Positions 3-9,009 of a stretch of 64,000 bases of DNA are shown here, in pieces. The DNA is from Vreelandella massiliensis (GTDB lineage: Bacteria > Pseudomonadota > Gammaproteobacteria > Pseudomonadales > Halomonadaceae): contig NZ_LT699745.1 of the NCBI RefSeq assembly GCF_900155385.1, positions 1,457,561-1,521,560 of the forward strand, in the 5' to 3' direction. Made by a program: the position numbers and the translations under genes. How positions within the stretch are numbered: position 1 is the stretch's first letter; each line of letters starts with the position of its first letter. A model generated the notes under the pieces. That model made no database searches and was not told the origin of the DNA. It saw nothing but the letters and a program-made list of their open reading frames with translations.

Positions 3-1043
3 CGCAGTGAACTGGGCAGCGCCTATCGCCGCCGCATGGGACACGCTTATGGCAAGCAGCAAAATGGCGAGCCCTCCCATGCCGCCTTCGATGCCAGTCT
101 GGCGCGGGTCGAGCGTACTTATCTGGGCCGGGCCAGCCACCTCTATGGCCTGCTGGATAACGACGACGGCTTCGACTTCCAGGGTGGACTTTCAACGGCG
201 GTGGAGCAGGTGCGCGGCGACGCGCCCGATAACCGCGTCCTCCAGCATGCCGACCCTAAAAACCCCAGGGTGGAAAGCCTAGAACGAGCCCTGCTGAGCG
301 AGCTGCGCGGGCGCAACCTTAATCCGCAATGGATCAAGCCGCTGATGGATCACGGCTATGCCGGGGCGCGTACCCTGGGCAGCGATTTTCTGGATAACCT
401 CTGGGGCTGGCAGGTGACAAGCCCCGAGGTGGTACGTTCCTGGGTGTGGGACGAGGTCGATGCGGTTTATTTTCAGGATAGCCATGGGTTGGGGCTGGAT
501 GAGTTCCTGAGTGAGGAGCACAACGTTCACGTCAAAACGCACATGCAATCCATTGCGCTGCTGGCGGCAAAGCGTGACTTCTGGGAAGCCAGCCAGGAAA
601 CCCTCGATCGTTTGACGCGTGAATTCGCCGAAGCGGTCAGCGAACACGGCCTGCCCGGTAGTGGCCATACGCACCCTGACCATCCGCTGCTGCCCTGGGT
701 TGCCGAGCGGCTGGACACTGATCTGCGCGAGACTTTCGAGGCGGTGATCGAGTCAGCGCGAATAGAACGTCCCGAACCCCAGCCGACACCGGCAAGTATT
801 CGGGAAATTCAGCCGCACCAAGCCGCGCCCGAAGCCGATGCCGCTGAGACGGATGGCGCCGAAACGGAGGCCACTGAGACGGATAGCGCCGAAGCTGATA
901 CCGAAAACGCGCAAATGTCAGCCGAAGGTGGGGATTCGATACTGCCTTGGTTACTAGGCGCAGTGGCGTTGCTGTTGCTGCTCGGCGGCATTGTTGCCGG
1001 ACGACGCACGCACCATTCAGCAATAGGAGGGAAGCAGTCATGA
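3..1043 (+). CDS. cobN: Cobaltochelatase subunit CobN, C-terminal part (5' end outside window)
   Basis: The reading frame is open from base 3, so the ATG at 36 is internal and the gene begins before the window. CobN is the large subunit of the ATP-dependent chelatase that inserts cobalt into hydrogenobyrinic acid a,c-diamide in aerobic cobalamin synthesis. The visible part shows typical CobN C-terminal stretches: LLDNDDGFDFQGGL, then NPQWIKPLMDHGYAGA, then the conserved helical end. After the chelatase domain there is an acidic Ala/Glu/Thr/Asp linker and a hydrophobic segment near the end (LLGAVALLLLLGGIVAG) followed by basic residues. That is a C-terminal membrane anchor, which the soluble CobN of model species lacks as far as I know. 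The stop overlaps the next start by 4 nt (ATGA). The family call is firm; the role of the anchor is inferred. Confidence 0.93.
   Translation, partial: RSELGSAYRRRMGHAYGKQQNGEPSHAAFDASLARVERTYLGRASHLYGLLDNDDGFDFQGGLSTAVEQVRGDAPDNRVLQHADPKNPRVESLERALLSELRGRNLNPQWIKPLMDHGYAGARTLGSDFLDNLWGWQVTSPEVVRSWVWDEVDAVYFQDSHGLGLDEFLSEEHNVHVKTHMQSIALLAAKRDFWEASQETLDRLTREFAEAVSEHGLPGSGHTHPDHPLLPWVAERLDTDLRETFEAVIESARIERPEPQPTPASIREIQPHQAAPEADAAETDGAETEATETDSAEADTENAQMSAEGGDSILPWLLGAVALLLLLGGIVAGRRTHHSAIGGKQS
840..899 (+). repeat. 30-bp tandem repeat (2 copies) in the cobN linker
   Basis: Two adjacent 30-bp units (840-869 and 870-899) differ at a few positions. They encode a repeated acidic decapeptide-like unit (roughly A-E-T-D-G/S-A-E-T/A-E/D) in the linker between the CobN body and its C-terminal membrane segment. 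In-frame tandem duplication is a usual way for low-complexity linkers to change length. Confidence 0.75.
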
Positions 1044-1501
1044 TGCCGACCCAGACGGGATTGACCACGGCAACGCTTGAGATCATGGGCATGCTGGTCG
1101 ACTGGCTGCTGACCCCGGTCATGCTGGTATTGCTGGCCCTGGTGGCGCTGTCGATCTGGGAGCTGGGCTTGACTATCGGTGAGCGCAGTGGCGGGATTCG
1201 GCGTCTGGTCGAGGCTCGCCAGAGTGAGTTGCTGGCGCGGCGTGCGCGTCGCGCCATCGACCGCGCCGATGTCTTGTCGCGTATCGGCCCCATGCTCGGC
1301 CTGATGGGTACCCTGATTCCGCTGGGGCCGGGCTTGGCCGCCCTGGGAAAGGGCCAGCTCGATGTACTGGCGCAGGCGGTGACGGTGGCTTTCAATACCA
1401 CCGTAATGGGTCTATTGGTGGGCATTCTCGGTTTTCTGTTGGGCCGGCTTCGTCGGCGCTGGTACGACGCCGCCATGTCGCAGCTGGAGGAGAGTCCATG
1501 A
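1040..1501 (+). CDS. MotA/TolQ/ExbB-like proton channel family protein
   Basis: A 153-aa inner-membrane protein. Start chosen at the ATG at 1040, which overlaps the cobN stop and has AGGAGGG at 1025-1031; the frame stays open upstream but without such a site. One membrane segment lies at about residues 14-38. A central cytoplasmic part follows, then IGPMLGLMGTLIPLG and NTTVMGLLVGILGFLLG, which match the signature of the MotA/TolQ/ExbB family (Gly-rich P-x-x-G-L-x-G-T, then a second helix with Thr). It is shorter than ExbB (about 240 aa) and lacks its long cytoplasmic loop. It lies between cobN and a DUF2149 gene. Inference: with the DUF2149 partner it forms a small proton-conducting complex, serving either the membrane-anchored CobN or outer-membrane corrinoid uptake. 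Confidence 0.8.
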   Translation: MMPTQTGLTTATLEIMGMLVDWLLTPVMLVLLALVALSIWELGLTIGERSGGIRRLVEARQSELLARRARRAIDRADVLSRIGPMLGLMGTLIPLGPGLAALGKGQLDVLAQAVTVAFNTTVMGLLVGILGFLLGRLRRRWYDAAMSQLEESP

Positions 1502-1794
1502 GCGTTCCCGATTACCGCCGCAGCCGCTTCGATACGATCGATGAAGAACCCATGGGTCCTCTGGCCAACCTGGCCGATATCATGCTGGTATTCGCCGTGG
1601 GCCTAATGGTGGCCTTGGCGGCCTCCCAAGGCGCCAAGCCGACAGGCGGTATGGACGTCAACGCCGGGCGTGAGTTGCCCGAAATGCCCGCAGGTGTCGG
1701 AGAAACAGGTAGCGGCTACGAGAGCGTGGGCCGGGTTTATCGCGACTCGCAAAGCGGGCGCTTGATCCTGATCGACGATGGGGCGAAACCATGA
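1498..1794 (+). CDS. DUF2149 domain protein, ExbD/MotB-like partner
   Basis: A 98-aa protein with a short cytoplasmic N-terminus, one membrane helix at about 22-43 and an exported tail. The helix starts with LADIMLVFAVGLMVAL, which closely resembles the ExbD helix around its proton-carrying aspartate (D-V-M-L-V); the equivalent here is Asp27. The C-terminus (GRVYRDSQSGRLILIDDG) fits the DUF2149 family, whose function is not established. It overlaps the upstream ExbB-like gene and the downstream substrate-binding protein by 4 nt each, so the three are probably translationally coupled. The ExbB/ExbD-like pairing rests on topology, the Asp motif and adjacency. Confidence 0.72.
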   Translation: MSVPDYRRSRFDTIDEEPMGPLANLADIMLVFAVGLMVALAASQGAKPTGGMDVNAGRELPEMPAGVGETGSGYESVGRVYRDSQSGRLILIDDGAKP

Positions 1795-2714
1795 CCAGAA
1801 TCGGAATACCCCCTGCAAAGACTTTCAATGTACGCTGTTGGATGATGTCGGCGCTGCTGGGTTTATGTGCCTTGCCGGCCTGGGCTAGTGATGGCGAGAT
1901 ATGTGCCGTCGATGACCGCGACCGAGAAGTGTGCCTGGCGGCCCCCGCCAAGCGGATTGCCGCGCTTTCGCCCGGGGCGACGGAGCTTGTCTACGCTGCG
2001 GGCGCCGGAGAGCAGGTGGTGGCGGTGGTCTCCTACAGCGATTTCCCCCCGGAAGCGAAAGAGGTACCGTCGGTAGGCAGTCATACGCGCCTGGACCTGG
2101 AAGCGCTGGCCACATTGCGCCCGGATCTGGTGATCGGCTGGACTACAGGCAACCCCGCCGAGCAGATGGAAACCATCGAAGCGCTGGGGGTGCCGGTGTT
2201 CTATATCGAGCCGCGCGATTTCGAAGGCGTGGCCAGCGCCATCGAACGACTAGCGCAGTTGGCGGATACCCAGCAGGAAGGCATCCGGGCTGCGGAGGAT
2301 TTTCGTCAGGGAATTGCCGAGCTGGCCGCAACGTTCAAGGACGCCGAGCCGGTGGAAGTGTTCTATCAAGTCTGGGATGAACCCTTGATGACCATCAACG
2401 ATGAGCACTTTATCGGCAAGGTGCTAACGCTGTGCGGCGGGGGCAATGTGTTCGGCGACCTTTCGCGCTTGGTGCCCCGCATCGACGACGAGGCGGTATT
2501 GGCCGCCAACCCCGAGGCGATTCTGGCGGGTGGCATGGGCGAGGAAAACCGCGATTGGCTGACCCATTGGGAGCAGTACTCCAACCTTCAGGCGGTACAG
2601 AACGACAATCTCTTTTTCGTGCCGCCTTCGCTGATTCAGCGCCCCACGCCACGTCTGCTCGAAGGCAGCCGGCTGTTCTGCGAAAAACTCGAGGTGGCGC
2701 GTGAACGGCGCTGA
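1791..2714 (+). CDS. btuF: Corrinoid/iron-chelate ABC transporter, periplasmic binding protein (BtuF-like)
   Basis: A 307-aa exported binding protein. The signal peptide is about residues 1-32, with a hydrophobic core and A-W-A-S at the likely cleavage site. Then comes the cluster-A-3 substrate-binding fold: RIAALSPGATELVYAAG, a DLVIGWTTGNP motif, and the C-terminal NLQAVQNDNLFFVPPSLIQR stretch typical of BtuF/FhuD proteins. It should bind cobalamin or a precursor and deliver it to the permease encoded next, whose GTG start lies inside this gene (14-nt overlap). Substrate is assigned from location among cobalamin genes; siderophore binding is the main alternative. Confidence 0.85.
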   Translation: MTRIGIPPAKTFNVRCWMMSALLGLCALPAWASDGEICAVDDRDREVCLAAPAKRIAALSPGATELVYAAGAGEQVVAVVSYSDFPPEAKEVPSVGSHTRLDLEALATLRPDLVIGWTTGNPAEQMETIEALGVPVFYIEPRDFEGVASAIERLAQLADTQQEGIRAAEDFRQGIAELAATFKDAEPVEVFYQVWDEPLMTINDEHFIGKVLTLCGGGNVFGDLSRLVPRIDDEAVLAANPEAILAGGMGEENRDWLTHWEQYSNLQAVQNDNLFFVPPSLIQRPTPRLLEGSRLFCEKLEVARERR

Positions 2715-3714
2715 TCTGGCTTATTCCGCTGCCTCTCGGCGCTGGTGGCGTTCGCTAGGATTGCCGCTGGGTATTCTGGCGCTGTTCGCCCTGCTGGCGA
2801 TGCTGCTTTCGCTTAGTGTGGGCAGTGCTTCGCTTTCGCTCATGGATGTATGGGCGGTGCTGCGCGGCGGCGGTAACGCCCTGGCGCAAACCCTGGTGCT
2901 TGAACTGCGGGTGCCGCGTACCTTGGCCGCCTTCACCACCGGGGGGTTGCTGGCGGTGGCGGGGGCATTGATGCAGGTGCTGTTGCGCAATCCCCTGGCC
3001 GACCCCTACGTGCTGGGACTTTCCGGCGGCGCTTCGGTAGGGGCCCTGGTCGCCATGCTGGCGGGAATGGGCGGCATGGTCATCTCCGGTTCGGCATTCG
3101 CCGGGGCACTCGCCTCGACGCTATTGGTGTTCGGGCTGGCCCATGGCACGGGGAGCTGGACGCCGTCACGCCTGCTGCTCACCGGGGTGGTGGTAGCCGC
3201 TGGCTGGGGCGCGGTGATCACCTTGATGCTGGCGATCAGCCCCGCCGAGCGCCTGCCCGGCATGCTCTACTGGTTGATGGGTGACCTTTCCTATGTGCGG
3301 TCGCCCTGGCCGCCCATGGTCCTGCTGGCGATCGTCTGCGTACTGGTCATGCCGCTTGGGCGTAGCCTAAACGTGCTGGCCCGCGGCCCCCAGCAGGCAG
3401 CCGCCTTGGGAGTCGATGTGCGCCCCTTGGAGTGGGGCATTTACGTGGTGGCAAGCGTATTGACCGCCGCCGCCGTGACCACCGCTGGTAGCATCGGGTT
3501 CGTTGGCCTAGTGATACCTCACATGCTGCGTTTGCTGCTGGGCAACGACCAGCGGCTGATCCTGCCCGCCTGCGCCCTGGCGGGGGGTACGCTGCTGGTG
3601 CTGGCCGATACGCTGGCGCGCACCATCATTGCCCCCGAACAACTGCCGGTCGGGGTGATTACCGCGCTGCTCGGCGTGCCCACCTTCCTGTTTCTGCTCT
3701 ACCGGAGCCGCTGA
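2701..3714 (+). CDS. btuC: FecCD/BtuC-type ABC transporter permease
   Basis: A 337-aa polytopic permease starting with GTG at 2701, with about ten membrane segments as in BtuC. Family motifs include RVPRTLAAFTTGGLLAVAGA, NPLADPYVLGLSGGASVGA, and the ATPase-coupling stretch AGSIGFVGLVIPHMLRLLLG near residue 265. It works with the upstream binding protein and the downstream ATPase to import corrinoids. It overlaps the ATPase gene by one base. The family call is strong; the vitamin B12 substrate is inferred from the operon. Confidence 0.88.
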   Translation: MNGADLAYSAASRRWWRSLGLPLGILALFALLAMLLSLSVGSASLSLMDVWAVLRGGGNALAQTLVLELRVPRTLAAFTTGGLLAVAGALMQVLLRNPLADPYVLGLSGGASVGALVAMLAGMGGMVISGSAFAGALASTLLVFGLAHGTGSWTPSRLLLTGVVVAAGWGAVITLMLAISPAERLPGMLYWLMGDLSYVRSPWPPMVLLAIVCVLVMPLGRSLNVLARGPQQAAALGVDVRPLEWGIYVVASVLTAAAVTTAGSIGFVGLVIPHMLRLLLGNDQRLILPACALAGGTLLVLADTLARTIIAPEQLPVGVITALLGVPTFLFLLYRSR

Positions 3715-4484
3715 TGAGCTCTCTGGCGACGCAAGACCTCATCATCGACGTACCCGGTCGCCCGGGCGGCACAGCGCTTAATCTCACCGTTGAGCCGGGT
3801 CAGAGCTGGGGTGTATTAGGCCCCAACGGCGCCGGCAAGACCACGCTCTTGCACACCCTGGCCGGGCTCAAACCGCCCCGTTCGGGGCATGTAAAGCTCG
3901 CCGACAAGCCGCTAGCGTTGCTACGTAGACGACAAGTCGCCCGCGAGTTGGGCTTGGTGTTTCAGGACCGCCAGGACGGTTTTCCCGCCACGGTACTGGA
4001 AACCACTTTAATAGGGCGTCATCCGTATCTTTCGCCCTGGCAAATGGAGGGTGCCGACGATTACGCCCGCGCTGAATGGGCCCTGGAGCGGCTAGACGTG
4101 GCGCATCTGCGCGATCGCCTGGTGAATACGCTCTCCGGTGGCGAGCGACAGCGGGTGGCGATTGCCACGGTGCTGACCCAGTCACCCAGCATCTGGTTGG
4201 CCGACGAGCCGACCAATCATCTCGATCTGCATCATCAAAGCGCCGTCATGGCGCTGATGGCCGAGCAGGCGAGAGAAGGGCAGGCAGTGATGATGTGTTT
4301 GCACGACCTCAATCTGGCGGCGCGTTGGTGCGATCATATTCTGCTGCTCTATCCCGATGGCAACGCCTGCTGGGGGCCGAAGGATCGCATGCTGGTACCC
4401 AGCGCGCTGGAACGTCTCTATCGCCAGCGCCTGGCCGTTGTTGAGGTCGACGGCGCGCCGGTATTTGTGCCCCTACAATCGTAA
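3714..4484 (+). CDS. btuD: ABC transporter ATP-binding protein (BtuD-like)
   Basis: A 256-aa ATPase of the iron-chelate/B12 importer class. Visible motifs are Walker A GPNGAGKTT (about residue 37), the Q-loop in VFQDRQDGF, the signature LSGGERQR, Walker B IWLADEP with the D-loop NHLDLHHQ, and the switch His in CLHDLNLAARWCD. It powers the BtuC-like permease it overlaps. The spacing to the following cobB is only 15 nt, so uptake and biosynthesis genes are likely on one transcript. Confidence 0.88.
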   Translation: MSSLATQDLIIDVPGRPGGTALNLTVEPGQSWGVLGPNGAGKTTLLHTLAGLKPPRSGHVKLADKPLALLRRRQVARELGLVFQDRQDGFPATVLETTLIGRHPYLSPWQMEGADDYARAEWALERLDVAHLRDRLVNTLSGGERQRVAIATVLTQSPSIWLADEPTNHLDLHHQSAVMALMAEQAREGQAVMMCLHDLNLAARWCDHILLLYPDGNACWGPKDRMLVPSALERLYRQRLAVVEVDGAPVFVPLQS

Positions 4485-4499
4485 AGCGAGGTAATCTGC

Positions 4500-5807
4500 A
4501 TGTTCCAGGGTAACGCCCATGCCGCCTTAATCAGTGCGCCCGGCTCTGGCCAAGGCAAGTCCATGATCACAGCGGCGTTGGCGCGGCTGCACCGTAATGC
4601 CGGTCGCACCGTGCGCATCTTCAAGCACGGTCCGGACTACCTCGACCCCATGGTGCAGGAGATCGCCTCGGGTCAGCCGGTGTATCAGCTGCACCCTTGG
4701 ATGACGGGCGAAGACGAGTGCCGCTGGCGCTTGGCCAAAGCCGCTCAGGAGGCCGACGTCATTCTGGTCGAGGGCTCGATGGGGCTGTTTGACGGCTCAC
4801 CGTCCAGCGCCGACCTGGCCATCCTCGCGGATCTCCCCGCCCTACCGGTAATCGACGCCTGGGGCATGGCGCAAACCTTTGGTGCGGTAGCGCAGGGCCT
4901 TGCTCAGTATCACCCAGAGCTTGCCATTCATGACGTCATCGCTAATCGCGTGGGCAGCCCGGGCCATGGCAAGCTGCTCGCCGATAGCATGCCCGAAGGC
5001 ATTAACCTGCTGGGTGCCGTCCCCCGCCATGAAGCAATGAAGATCCCCGACCGCCATCTGGGGCTGGTGCAGGCCAGCGAGCTAAGCGGCCTGGATACCC
5101 AGCTGGATGCTGCCGCCGAGGTATTGAAAGAAGCAGGCCTGGATCGCCTGCCCAAGCGCGTTTCGCTTGAGGCGAAGGCGCCAGACCCCGTGCCACAATA
5201 TCTCGACGGCGTACGGATTGGCATTGCCCGTGACGACGCCTTTGCGTTCATCTACCGCGCCAATCTGGACGTACTGGAAGCAATGGGGGCTGAGCTTCAG
5301 TTTTTCTCGCCGCTCAACGATACCGCGCTGCCACATTGCGATGCGCTATGGCTGCCCGGCGGCTACCCTGAGCTGCACGCTGCGCGCTTTAGAGCCAACC
5401 AAACGATGCGTGATGCCCTGGCGGCTCATCATCATGCCGGTAAGCCGATTCTGGCCGAGTGCGGTGGGCTGATGAGCTGCGTGGAGCAGCTGGTGGACGG
5501 CGAGGGTGTTTCCCACGTCATGACGGGGCTGCTGCCCGGTACCGCCAAGATGGCGGGCAAGTTGACCGCCCTTGGCTTGCAGAGCCTGATGACAAAAAGT
5601 GGCGAGCTGCGCGGTCACACCTATCATCACTCGCTCTTAGAAACCTCCATGACGCCGCTGGCCCGTACCCGCAAACTGGCCGGCAGCGAGGCTGAGCCGA
5701 TCTACCGCGAGGGCGCGCTGGTAGCGAGCTACTTCCACGGCTACTTCCCCTCAGCGCCCAAGCTGGTGGCGGAACTCTTTACCGGCCAGCCGATACAGGT
5801 GATGTAA
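4500..5807 (+). CDS. cobB: Cobyrinate/hydrogenobyrinate a,c-diamide synthase
   Basis: A 435-aa glutamine-dependent amidotransferase that amidates the a and c side chains of (hydrogeno)byrinic acid using ATP and glutamine. The N-terminal dethiobiotin-synthetase-like domain has the P-loop SAPGSGQGKS at about residue 14 and KHGPDYLDP. The C-terminal class I glutaminase domain has the nucleophile in LAECGGLMSC and a His in YFHGYFPS near the end. With cobN in the same operon the substrate is probably hydrogenobyrinate (aerobic route). Length is normal for the family (about 430-460 aa). Confidence 0.92.
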   Translation: MFQGNAHAALISAPGSGQGKSMITAALARLHRNAGRTVRIFKHGPDYLDPMVQEIASGQPVYQLHPWMTGEDECRWRLAKAAQEADVILVEGSMGLFDGSPSSADLAILADLPALPVIDAWGMAQTFGAVAQGLAQYHPELAIHDVIANRVGSPGHGKLLADSMPEGINLLGAVPRHEAMKIPDRHLGLVQASELSGLDTQLDAAAEVLKEAGLDRLPKRVSLEAKAPDPVPQYLDGVRIGIARDDAFAFIYRANLDVLEAMGAELQFFSPLNDTALPHCDALWLPGGYPELHAARFRANQTMRDALAAHHHAGKPILAECGGLMSCVEQLVDGEGVSHVMTGLLPGTAKMAGKLTALGLQSLMTKSGELRGHTYHHSLLETSMTPLARTRKLAGSEAEPIYREGALVASYFHGYFPSAPKLVAELFTGQPIQVM

Positions 5808-6364: not shown

Positions 6365-6976
6365 ATGCGCGAGAATGCCAAGACCCCTGAACGCCATGCC
6401 CAGCGCATGGCGGCCAAGCAGAAAGTCATGAACGAGCGCATTGCACGCGCCGATAAAGAGCAGGGCGTGTTGCTGGTGCTCACTGGCCCCGGCAAGGGTA
6501 AAAGCAGCTCCGGGTTTGGCATGCTCGCGCGTGCCTTGGGGCACGGCATGAAAGTCGGTGTCGTACAGTTTATCAAGGGCGCGTTCAGCACCGGTGAAGA
6601 CGCCTTCTTCCGTAACCTGCCCAACGTGGACTACCACGTGATGGGTGAGGGCTACACCTGGGACACCCAGGACCGCGAACGCGACGTCGCCGCTGCTAAC
6701 GCCGCCTGGGCAGAAGCCAAGCGCATGCTGCAAGACGAAAGCTATCACTTGGTCTTGCTTGATGAACTCAACATCGCCCTGCGCTACGAGTACCTCGACC
6801 TTGATCAAGTTCTCGACGACCTGCAAGCCCGCCCCGCCATGCAGCACGCCGTCGTCACCGGCCGCTACGCCCCTGAGCAACTCATCGACCTCGCCGACAC
6901 CGTTACCGAAATGAAAGTGGTCAAGCACGCCTTTAAAGACCAGGGCATTAAAGCCCAGAAGGGCATAGAGCTATGA
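6365..6976 (+). CDS. cobO: Cob(I)yrinic acid a,c-diamide adenosyltransferase (CobO/BtuR type)
   Basis: A 203-aa cytoplasmic enzyme that transfers the 5'-deoxyadenosyl group from ATP to cob(I)alamin or corrinoid precursors. The P-loop is LVLTGPGKGKSSSGFG at about residues 38-53. GVVQFIKGAFSTGE, the G-E-G-Y-T-W motif and LVLLDELNIALRYEYL follow. The N-terminal helix (residues 1-30) is basic, as in CobO. RBS AGGAG lies just before the ATG. It overlaps the next gene by 4 nt (ATGA). Confidence 0.93.
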   Translation: MRENAKTPERHAQRMAAKQKVMNERIARADKEQGVLLVLTGPGKGKSSSGFGMLARALGHGMKVGVVQFIKGAFSTGEDAFFRNLPNVDYHVMGEGYTWDTQDRERDVAAANAAWAEAKRMLQDESYHLVLLDELNIALRYEYLDLDQVLDDLQARPAMQHAVVTGRYAPEQLIDLADTVTEMKVVKHAFKDQGIKAQKGIEL

Positions 6977-7548: not shown

Positions 7549-9009
7549 ATGGCCACATTGATGATCCAGGGCACCACCTCGGATGCAGGGAAAAGCACTG
7601 TGGTGGCGGCTTTGTGCCGTGCGCTTGCAAGGCGTGGCATATCGGTGGCGCCGTTCAAACCGCAAAACATGGCACTCAACAGCGCGGTGACCGTGGATGG
7701 CGGCGAGATTGGTCGCTCCACAGCGCTTCAAGCGCTGGCGTGTGGGCTTGATCCTCACAGCGATATGAACCCAGTGCTGCTCAAGCCCGAAAGCGACCAA
7801 GGTGCACAGGTAATTCTGCGGGGAAAAGTGCACGGCCACATGAAAGCCATGGATTACCACGCCTACAAGATCGAGGCCAGGCGCTCTGTCATGGCCGGCT
7901 GGGAAGCGCTTTCAAAGCGTTTCGATGTGATCATTGCCGAGGGCGCGGGTAGTCCCGCCGAGATCAACCTGCGCCAAAACGATATCGCCAACATGGGCTT
8001 TGCCGAGAGGGTGGACTGCCCGGTGCTGCTAGTGGGCGATATTGACCGTGGTGGGGTGTTTGCTCAGTTGGTGGGTACCCTTGAACTGCTCTCGGAGTCC
8101 GAGCAGGCGCGTACCCAGGGCTTTATTATCAACCGCTTTCGGGGTGATATCGGCCTGCTGGAACCGGGTCTCGACTGGCTCACCCAGCGTACCGGTAAGC
8201 CAGTGTTAGGCACCTTGCCTTATCTGCAAGGCCTGCTGCTGGATGCCGAGGACAGTGTGGGGCTCAGTGGCTGCCTAAGTGGAATGCCTAAGCTCAGGGT
8301 GGTGATTCCGGCGCTACCGCGTATCAGTAACCACAACGATTTCGATCCGTTGCGCCTGCATCCTGCCGTGGCGCTTACCTTCGTCGGGCCGGACCAATCC
8401 ATTCCCCCCGCGGATTTAATTATCCTACCGGGCAGCAAAAGTACCCGAGCCGATCTTGAGTGGCTACGCACTCATGGCTGGGAGGCGGTGATTCAACGCC
8501 ACCTTCGCTACGGCGGGCAGGTGCTGGGTATTTGCGGCGGCTTTCAGATGCTGGGGCGCGCCATCCACGATCCGGACGGGCTAGAGGGAGCTATCGGTTC
8601 TACACCCGGTTTGGGGCTGCTGGATTTTGAAACTCGCATGGTGACTGGCAAGCAGCTGCGAAACGTTCAGGGACTTCTACTGCCGGAGGGCGTGCCGGTT
8701 AGTGGCTATGAAATTCATAACGGCGTCAGCTCCGGGCCAGCGCTAACGCGGCCTCTGGTCGCTTTTGATAACCGTGAAGACGGCGCGGTCAGCGCCGATG
8801 GTCAGATCATTGGCACCTATCTGCACGGCCTGTTTGACCAGGTGGAGGCCTGCGAGGCATTGCTGTATCGCTGCGGACTGGAAGACAGAGGGGGCGCAGT
8901 AGATTACGCCGCCCACCGCTTGGCAGAACTGGATCGTTTGGCGGATACGCTAGAGACCCATCTCGACATGGCGTTTATCGAACGCCTGCTGGAATTGAAA
9001 GCGTCTTAA
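7549..9009 (+). CDS. cobQ: Cobyric acid synthase
   Basis: A 486-aa glutamine amidotransferase that adds four amide groups (b, d, e and g) to adenosylcobyrinic acid a,c-diamide. The N-terminal ATP domain starts with [20 protein letters not shown] and has [11 protein letters not shown]. The middle has [12 protein letters not shown] and [10 protein letters not shown]. The glutaminase domain has [12 protein letters not shown], the nucleophile in [11 protein letters not shown], and GYEIHNG. Length matches the family. The ATG at 7549 has only weak ribosome-site sequence (GAGAT), and the 53-nt gap before it holds the end of the remnant locus. Last gene of the cobalamin run; the next gene is convergent. 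Confidence 0.95.

Follow-up and report, generated by a model that had tools for sequence, protein, structure and literature searches.

A 64,000-nucleotide stretch of the Vreelandella massiliensis genome (contig NZ_LT699745.1, positions 1,457,561 to 1,521,560 of the forward strand; referred to here as the window) opens inside a gene for a CobN-family protein of the BtuS/HmuS clade, which is followed by genes for an ExbB/MotA-like protein and a DUF2149 protein. These three genes are a B12-operon variant of an already known module. Judging from its sequence, the CobN-like protein is most likely an extracytoplasmic, periplasm-facing chelatase and not a cytosolic CobN. We lean towards the view that the ExbB-like/DUF2149 pair is a proton-driven motor that acts on this exported enzyme through its C-terminal tail. 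The parts of the set are the following.

1–1043, + strand: 3′ part of the CobN-family (BtuS/HmuS-clade) gene; the whole protein has 1485 amino acids (aa) and starts at G000:C2:1454146 (L002:8147)
828–935, + strand: acidic linker of the CobN-like protein, from its D/E-rich sequence
939–995, + strand: C-terminal membrane helix of the CobN-like protein, residues 1452–1470, from hydrophobicity
996–1040, + strand: short tip after the helix with more basic than acidic residues, from sequence
1040–1501, + strand: ExbB/MotA-like proton-channel protein, 153 aa, HmuU-like (PF01618)
1498–1794, + strand: DUF2149 protein, 98 aa, HmuV-like, with one membrane helix and then a short second part (PF09919)
1576–1578, + strand: codon of Asp27, candidate proton carrier (D in 89/90 sequences)

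The genes are joined by 4-nt overlaps: the CobN TGA (1041–1043) overlaps the ExbB-like ATG at 1040 in an ATGA junction, the stop of the ExbB-like gene is likewise overlapped by the DUF2149 ATG at 1498, and that of the DUF2149 gene by the btuF ATG at 1791 (ATGA scan). The gene positions and overlaps reported in an earlier note on this DNA are confirmed by these coordinates.

The exported CobN-like protein and its partner pair

The part of the CobN-like protein that is encoded in the window matches PF02514 with an E value of 3.1e-51. The gene starts upstream of the window, and the N terminus encoded by this upstream DNA, MRCLLFGLVLWLSLLPVLASA, reads as a signal peptide. At the opposite end, the C-terminal helix (hydrophobicity 2.51 at residues −33 to −15) is preceded by the D/E-rich linker, as the earlier note had described. 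The combination of a signal peptide and a C-terminal membrane helix places the body of the chelatase most likely outside the cytoplasm. Together with the PF02514 domain and placement with HmuS in the tree, these features assign the protein to the clade of exported class I chelatases (BtuS/HmuS in the wide sense). The protein scores well below all CobN and BchH equivalog cut-offs (best 572 bits vs CobN cut-offs of at least 822), and ChlH, CobN and HmuS (9d26, 7.3e-97) are among its best relatives of solved structure. A genome search found no second CobN-family gene in V. massiliensis. Averaged over 77 tailed CobN proteins, net acidity is 5.4 in the 60 residues that precede the helix, with values above zero in 65/77, and the residues after the helix carry a net positive charge in 74/77.

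The equivalent of His-538 of HmuS is kept in the window protein (GRHST from residue 683), but Met-79 and His-254 are replaced by Leu and Asp in a pairwise-derived alignment. There is no Met-rich insertion (at most 5 Met per 120 residues), and the motif QS..W......H, or its longer form QS..W......H..E, has zero matches. Thus, the strict sequence traits of the HmuS haem de-chelatase (haem site, Met-rich insertion and motif) are not found, although these traits also vary among the three Bacteroidota proteins compared, in which the insertion is present only in L263 and Met-79 is missing in L264. Because the His-538 equivalent is kept and the haem-site residues of HmuS are not, the substrate is probably something other than haem.

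The 153-aa protein is a member of the MotA/TolQ/ExbB family (PF01618 MotA_ExbB, E 9e-11, 42.1 bits vs a cut-off of 22.9), bearing out the signature that had been read from its sequence, and the 98-aa protein is a member of the DUF2149 (HmuV) family (PF09919, E 4.1e-8, 33.9 bits vs a cut-off of 27.1). Of 90 distinct DUF2149 domain sequences, 89 have D at the position of Asp27 and one (Runella) has E, which favours the proposed importance of this residue; Asn24 is N in 90/90 and Pro18 is P in 88/88. Low-confidence single-sequence models contain a helix at residues 22–42 and strands at 79–82 and 89–92 for DUF2149, and are helical for the ExbB-like protein. Searches of the PDB gave just weak matches for the DUF2149 profile (E 0.16 and 1.1) and a best E of 0.39 for the ExbB-like protein. 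In 88/90 distinct cases, the DUF2149 stop lies less than 1.2 kb downstream of the end of an ExbB-like open reading frame (ORF) on the same strand; the two misses are L140, which lies at a contig start, and L271.

Distribution of the tail and the pair

The C-terminal tail and the pair occur together. Among 185 distinct CobN-family proteins, 73 have both, 108 have neither, four have the tail alone and none has the pair without the tail, a result in favour of the co-occurrence that the earlier note had put forward as a check. The raw table (n=204) comprises 115 rows with neither, 69 with all three features, 14 with the tail only, five with the pair and no scored tail, and one with the tail and DUF2149 alone. 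Left out before the count of 185 were L213–L242 (short flanks), a truncated ORF in L164, L316 (split contig) and L333, which is the window's own gene and is counted once as win_CobN. The tails of L342, L344, L352, L269, L268 and L272 were accepted at a lower hydrophobicity threshold after reading, and about 30 cytosolic CobN rows have just 1.0–1.4 kb of flank. Of the four tail-only rows, one is on a contig that starts inside the DUF2149 gene (L379), two belong to a tandem array (L383) in a genome whose pair is found in L164, and the last, L273, is unexplained. The array itself, in Methanolobus vulcani (L383:1-17000 and L164), consists of several exported CobN-like proteins beside one pair.

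In a tree of 100 proteins, all tailed CobN proteins, including those of the window, archaea and the Bacteroidota HmuS proteins, fall in one clade with a Shimodaira–Hasegawa-like approximate likelihood ratio test (SH-aLRT) value of 100. This clade has 44 rows, of which 39 have both tail and pair, four the tail only and one neither. The pattern is one deep association plus a few changes, and its strength is the linkage across bacteria and archaea with altered gene order, together with a clade that lacks both features.

DUF2149 was detected in at least 11/299 Pseudomonadota genomes, a lower bound, as the Pfam model misses window-type copies (G086 gives no match, and a clear gene is present in L243). 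Both an ExbB-like and a CobN-like gene are nearby at 10/10 Pseudomonadota DUF2149 loci outside the window's genome. In the window's order, a close CobN relative (E ≤ 1e-200) is present in 39/390 genomes, the window's own included, and the ExbB-like and DUF2149 genes are adjacent in 35 of these 39 loci; in a 36th (G583), the pair is 3.3 kb away on the other strand. The three loci without the pair (L244, L372 and L373) share one genus code, g8, and encode CobN-like proteins that have the N-terminal segment and no tail helix, the absence of DUF2149 here referring to a custom model within stretches of 15–18 kb, not to whole genomes. L372 is nested among the tailed proteins in the tree. The g8 loci keep btuB- and btuF-like genes. 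Of the three, L244 and L372 have a B12 riboswitch, and none is found in L373, which begins just 145 bases before the btuB-like ORF, so that a riboswitch could be cut off. Among bacterial stretches of at least 13.5 kb that contain the pair (L271 left out), a CobN-like gene is present in 24/24 and a receptor-like ORF in 19/24, with no receptor detected by the custom model in L024, L270 and L374–L376. Both the order CobN–ExbB–DUF2149 and the order ExbB–DUF2149–CobN are found.

On plasmids, a CobN-like gene is beside the pair in 9/10 records (10 of the 11 records found, H3 not included). The window's own DUF2149 protein had zero matches in the plasmid search, and a search of viral contigs with the CobN tail found zero relatives. 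Plasmid pGLOV01 of Trichlorobacter carries the pair side by side with a separate exbB-exbD-tonB set, along with corrinoid genes and two B12 riboswitch matches. In Azospirillum, the pair is followed downstream by a B12 riboswitch and, at a greater distance, by nikR, and the metal of that copy is therefore ambiguous. A Runella plasmid (L265:1602-15860) holds the receptor, ExbB-like, DUF2149 and CobN-like genes within a hyp hydrogenase nickel cluster, which also encodes a NicO/DsbD-like protein (sub-threshold Pfam matches).

In archaea, DUF2149 is found in 30 of 50 mcrA-bearing genomes, mostly from methanogens; the 50 were chosen from 80 loci of 105 marker-gene-pattern stretches and include one ANME-1 and one ANME-3 (anaerobic methanotrophic archaea). 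An ExbB-like gene precedes DUF2149 in 20/20 archaeal stretches, and a CobN-like gene is present in 15/20. In two stretches without a called CobN (L166 and L167), the contig breaks off within a gene with a start that by eye looks like a CobN-like leader. The archaeal CobN-like proteins have the C-terminal helix wherever the C terminus is covered, and the N-terminal segment in all but L178; at the same threshold, the segment is also unscored in L023, L024 and L025. Tail-less CobN proteins of mcrA-type genomes have no pair in their stretches (L317, L318, L320–L322, L324, L325 and L327–L332). A membrane protein of the DUF2162 family is encoded directly before the ExbB-like gene in two archaeal stretches (L166:8822-9511 and L167:7265-7939) and in Trichlorobacter (L266:7552-8253), the place that HmuT occupies in Bacteroidota; the three HmuT-position proteins compared have no DUF2162 match.

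Archaea of this kind have no outer membrane, and the TonB_C and Plug domains are each found in 0/30 of the archaeal DUF2149 carriers. Methanosarcina acetivorans, used as a control genome, has DUF2149 and CobN matches and no TonB_C or ExbD match. As the trio is present in methanogenic archaea without outer-membrane uptake machinery, driving the enzyme is a more likely role for the pair than energising uptake across an outer membrane.

Possible roles of the pair

Of the two roles suggested in the earlier note, that of a proton-driven module working on a chelatase bound to the membrane is favoured by the archaeal copies, the co-occurrence of tail and pair, and the g8 clade; what changes is the enzyme, which faces the periplasm and is probably not biosynthetic. 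In the periplasm, the exported protein would act on a corrinoid or a similar metal-tetrapyrrole that BtuB has imported, removing or inserting the metal, and its C-terminal helix would hold it at the membrane. ChlH and CobN, its cytosolic relatives, depend on AAA+ partners that consume ATP, and such partners cannot work in the periplasm. Instead, an ExbB-like ring with a DUF2149 core may harness protons passing Asp27 and so move the chelatase via its tail, and this movement could drive conformational cycling or product release.

The published assignment of HmuU and HmuV is different: they are described as ExbB/ExbD partners that energise the haem receptor HmuR (PMC10100974, PMC12583661). By analogy, the pair would be an accessory ExbB/ExbD set for a TonB-dependent receptor, BtuB here and HmuR in Bacteroidota, with TonB encoded elsewhere or the CobN-like protein as its stand-in. 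A btuB-like gene is directly upstream in this operon, and most of the bacterial stretches with the pair have a receptor-like ORF, yet five of the 24 have none and all have a CobN-like gene, the g8 clade keeps btuB without tail or pair, and the archaeal carriers lack TonB_C and Plug. The earlier note's statement that no TonB gene is present holds for this cluster; elsewhere in the genome, TonB_C and ExbD matches lie beside an ExbB-like ORF recognised by eye, and TolR with TolA is also present (ORFs read by eye). The other role suggested in that note, a dedicated energiser of outer-membrane corrinoid uptake, thus cannot be the general one and is rejected as such on the archaeal evidence; we consider receptor energisation by the pair rather improbable. 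Alternatively, the pair could do no mechanical work and serve passively to anchor the chelatase in the membrane or to support its assembly, or it could form a small channel for released metal or protons. This would account equally well for the linkage and the tail co-occurrence, and is consistent with the activity of cell fractions described below, but the conservation of a membrane-helix Asp and a partner in the MotA/ExbB family are as expected for an ion-driven device, and a single helix would presumably suffice for anchoring; we regard a passive role as unlikely. A biosynthetic cobaltochelatase tethered to the membrane would fit the PF02514 domain and the surrounding cob genes. The signal peptide, the sub-cut-off equivalog score, the lack of a CbiC/CobH match and the position within the tailed clade with HmuS (SH-aLRT 100) speak against it, and this identity, which we consider barely credible, is rejected.

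Several observations weigh against a motor that drives the chelatase. Given NADH and no ATP, dialysed cell fractions of B. theta carry out HmuS dechelation (PMC12583661); such fractions should hold no proton gradient, and the first turnovers, at least, would therefore need no motor. The g8 clade retains a chelatase without the pair. The changes on the tree (two for the tail, six for the pair) include two independent pairs, which is not significant, and, with all tailed CobN proteins in one clade, the association rests on few independent events. At a second active-site position, the window protein has His, yet His is found in just 19/74 rows and Glu in 29 (rows having both helices). In stretch L273 (4143-12211), a cytosolic-type cobN is beside a tailed, exported cobN with no pair in 16.8 kb, the full set of that genome being on another contig. 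A Paracoccus plasmid (L271:3629-4735), perhaps carrying a remnant of the set, has a receptor fragment and DUF2149, and neither a CobN-like nor an ExbB-like gene was found in its stretch. Three archaeal pairs (L163, L165 and L180) have no CobN in the stretch and adjoin other exported proteins with a C-terminal helix. In Methanolobus (L163:8511-12301 and L165:4931-8721), the neighbour is an 873-aa S-layer-type protein with a signal peptide and C-terminal helix, possibly a second kind of client; in Methanobrevibacter (L180:4905-8483), the pair adjoins a protein of beta-helix type that has a C-terminal helix, and also a weakly DUF2162-like membrane protein.

The resemblance of DUF2149 to ExbD is also limited. 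The motif that the earlier note had matched to ExbD is recognisable by eye (NLADIMLV vs PFIDVMLV) with the Asp aligned, but a comparison of the DUF2149 profile with three ExbD/TolR sequences gives a probability of 3–7% in the register that aligns the Asp, and Pfam ExbD (PF02472) has no match to the window protein at E ≤ 1. With so weak a match in this three-sequence comparison, the protein does not qualify as a member of the ExbD/TolR family, and DUF2149 as a proven ExbD homologue is rejected. Coupling through the tail has a candidate site, a juxtamembrane motif [VIY]xGxx[ML] that precedes the helix in 32 of 39 tailed CobN proteins outside the window's subfamily; it was chosen after viewing the tails, many of which are relatives, and shuffled tails give a mean of 1.1 and a maximum of 4. 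The motif is absent from the window's own subfamily (0/38 tails), in which DUF2149 also has a different C-terminal motif. The two motifs may form a docking pair.

More broadly, and tentatively, the trio may represent a general class of proton-driven extracytoplasmic chelatases of bacteria and archaea, in which ExbB/DUF2149 would replace the AAA+ ATPase, couple by the C-terminal tail of the enzyme and be tuned to haem iron, zinc, nickel or corrinoids, with some archaeal copies driving other tail-anchored surface proteins. A search of open-licence PMC papers found no proposal that the pair drives the chelatase; one paper states that an effect of HmuT, HmuU and HmuV on HmuS activity cannot be excluded (PMC13227078). 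HmuS is a demonstrated haem de-chelatase that needs NADH and not ATP, and recombinant HmuS without its membrane helices performs just 1–2 turnovers (PMC12583661). If the proposed motor is correct, bacteria and archaea alike would have an ExbB-type machine that powers enzyme chemistry, HmuU/HmuV would need a new assignment, and a reason would be offered for the few turnovers of helix-less HmuS. It would also offer a clue to the archaeal HmuS homologues, described in the EMBO J 2025 paper as being of unclear use. The idea can be tested directly, thanks to the natural clade that lacks both tail and pair.

Operon setting and comparison with known systems

Downstream of the three genes, the operon continues with transport and corrinoid genes.

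1791–2714, + strand: btuF-like periplasmic binding protein; best NCBIfam model BtuF, below its cut-off
2701–3714, + strand: btuC-like permease; best NCBIfam model BtuC, below its cut-off
3714–4484, + strand: ATP-binding cassette (ABC) ATPase in the btuD position
4500–5807, + strand: cobB/cbiA, cobyrinic acid a,c-diamide synthase (411.9 bits vs a cut-off of 254)
6365–6976, + strand: cobO/btuR, corrinoid adenosyltransferase
7549–9009, + strand: cobQ, cobyric acid synthase (653.2 bits vs a cut-off of 273)

Upstream, the btuB-like receptor gene directly before cobN matches TIGR01779 (1.4e-145, below its cut-off) and is preceded by a cobalamin riboswitch (L002 5947-6169); genes farther upstream match the DBI_PRT, CobD/CbiB, CobU and CobS families. 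CbiC/CobH, a marker of corrin-ring synthesis, is found in 0/1 genome (other ring genes and CobS/CobT were not tested). With a B12 riboswitch, btu-type genes and cob genes present and CbiC/CobH not found, the locus looks like one for corrinoid salvage.

ExbB-ExbD-TonB consists of a MotA/ExbB-family channel and a small one-helix protein with a membrane Asp, and the pair described here has the same composition. The differences are that DUF2149 is not detected as ExbD, that no TonB is adjacent and that the client would be a chelatase.

One of the closest known systems is hmuSUV of Bacteroidota. There, too, an ExbB-like gene and a DUF2149 gene adjoin one for a CobN-family protein that has a C-terminal helix; placement in the same tree clade and the His-538 equivalent are also shared. 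DUF2149 is HmuV of the hmuYRSTUV operon (PMC10434189), so the earlier note's remark that no function is described for DUF2149 is not quite right, an ExbD-like role for HmuV having been published (PMC10100974). The window differs from hmuYRSTUV in that no HmuT-like gene lies between cobN and exbB, where the ORF lists leave no gene, and no hmuY or hmuT is found in the operon (the rest of the genome was not searched). It has a B12 riboswitch and B12-type receptor and transporter genes instead of haem genes, and its CobN-like protein differs from HmuS in the haem-site residues, Met-rich insertion and motif described above. PMC6460266 cites Rodionov 2003 for a 'third CobN type', to which BtuS corresponds. 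Similar to the window protein, BtuS1 and BtuS2 of B. fragilis are CobN-like, exported and membrane-anchored, and metalloporphyrin salvage has been proposed for them (PMC6460266); the words ExbB and MotA are absent from the main text of that paper. The P. aeruginosa operon PA1922–PA1925 also combines a receptor, a CobN-like protein, a gene annotated ExbD and DUF2149 (PMC4542158, PMC9431628), and is a Zur-regulated zinc-starvation operon, in contrast to the B12 riboswitch of the window. The ChlH-ChlI-ChlD and CobN-CobS-CobT systems have large subunits of the same family as the CobN-like protein, but are described as driven by ATP with accessory proteins (PMC12583661) and as cytosolic (PMC13227078).

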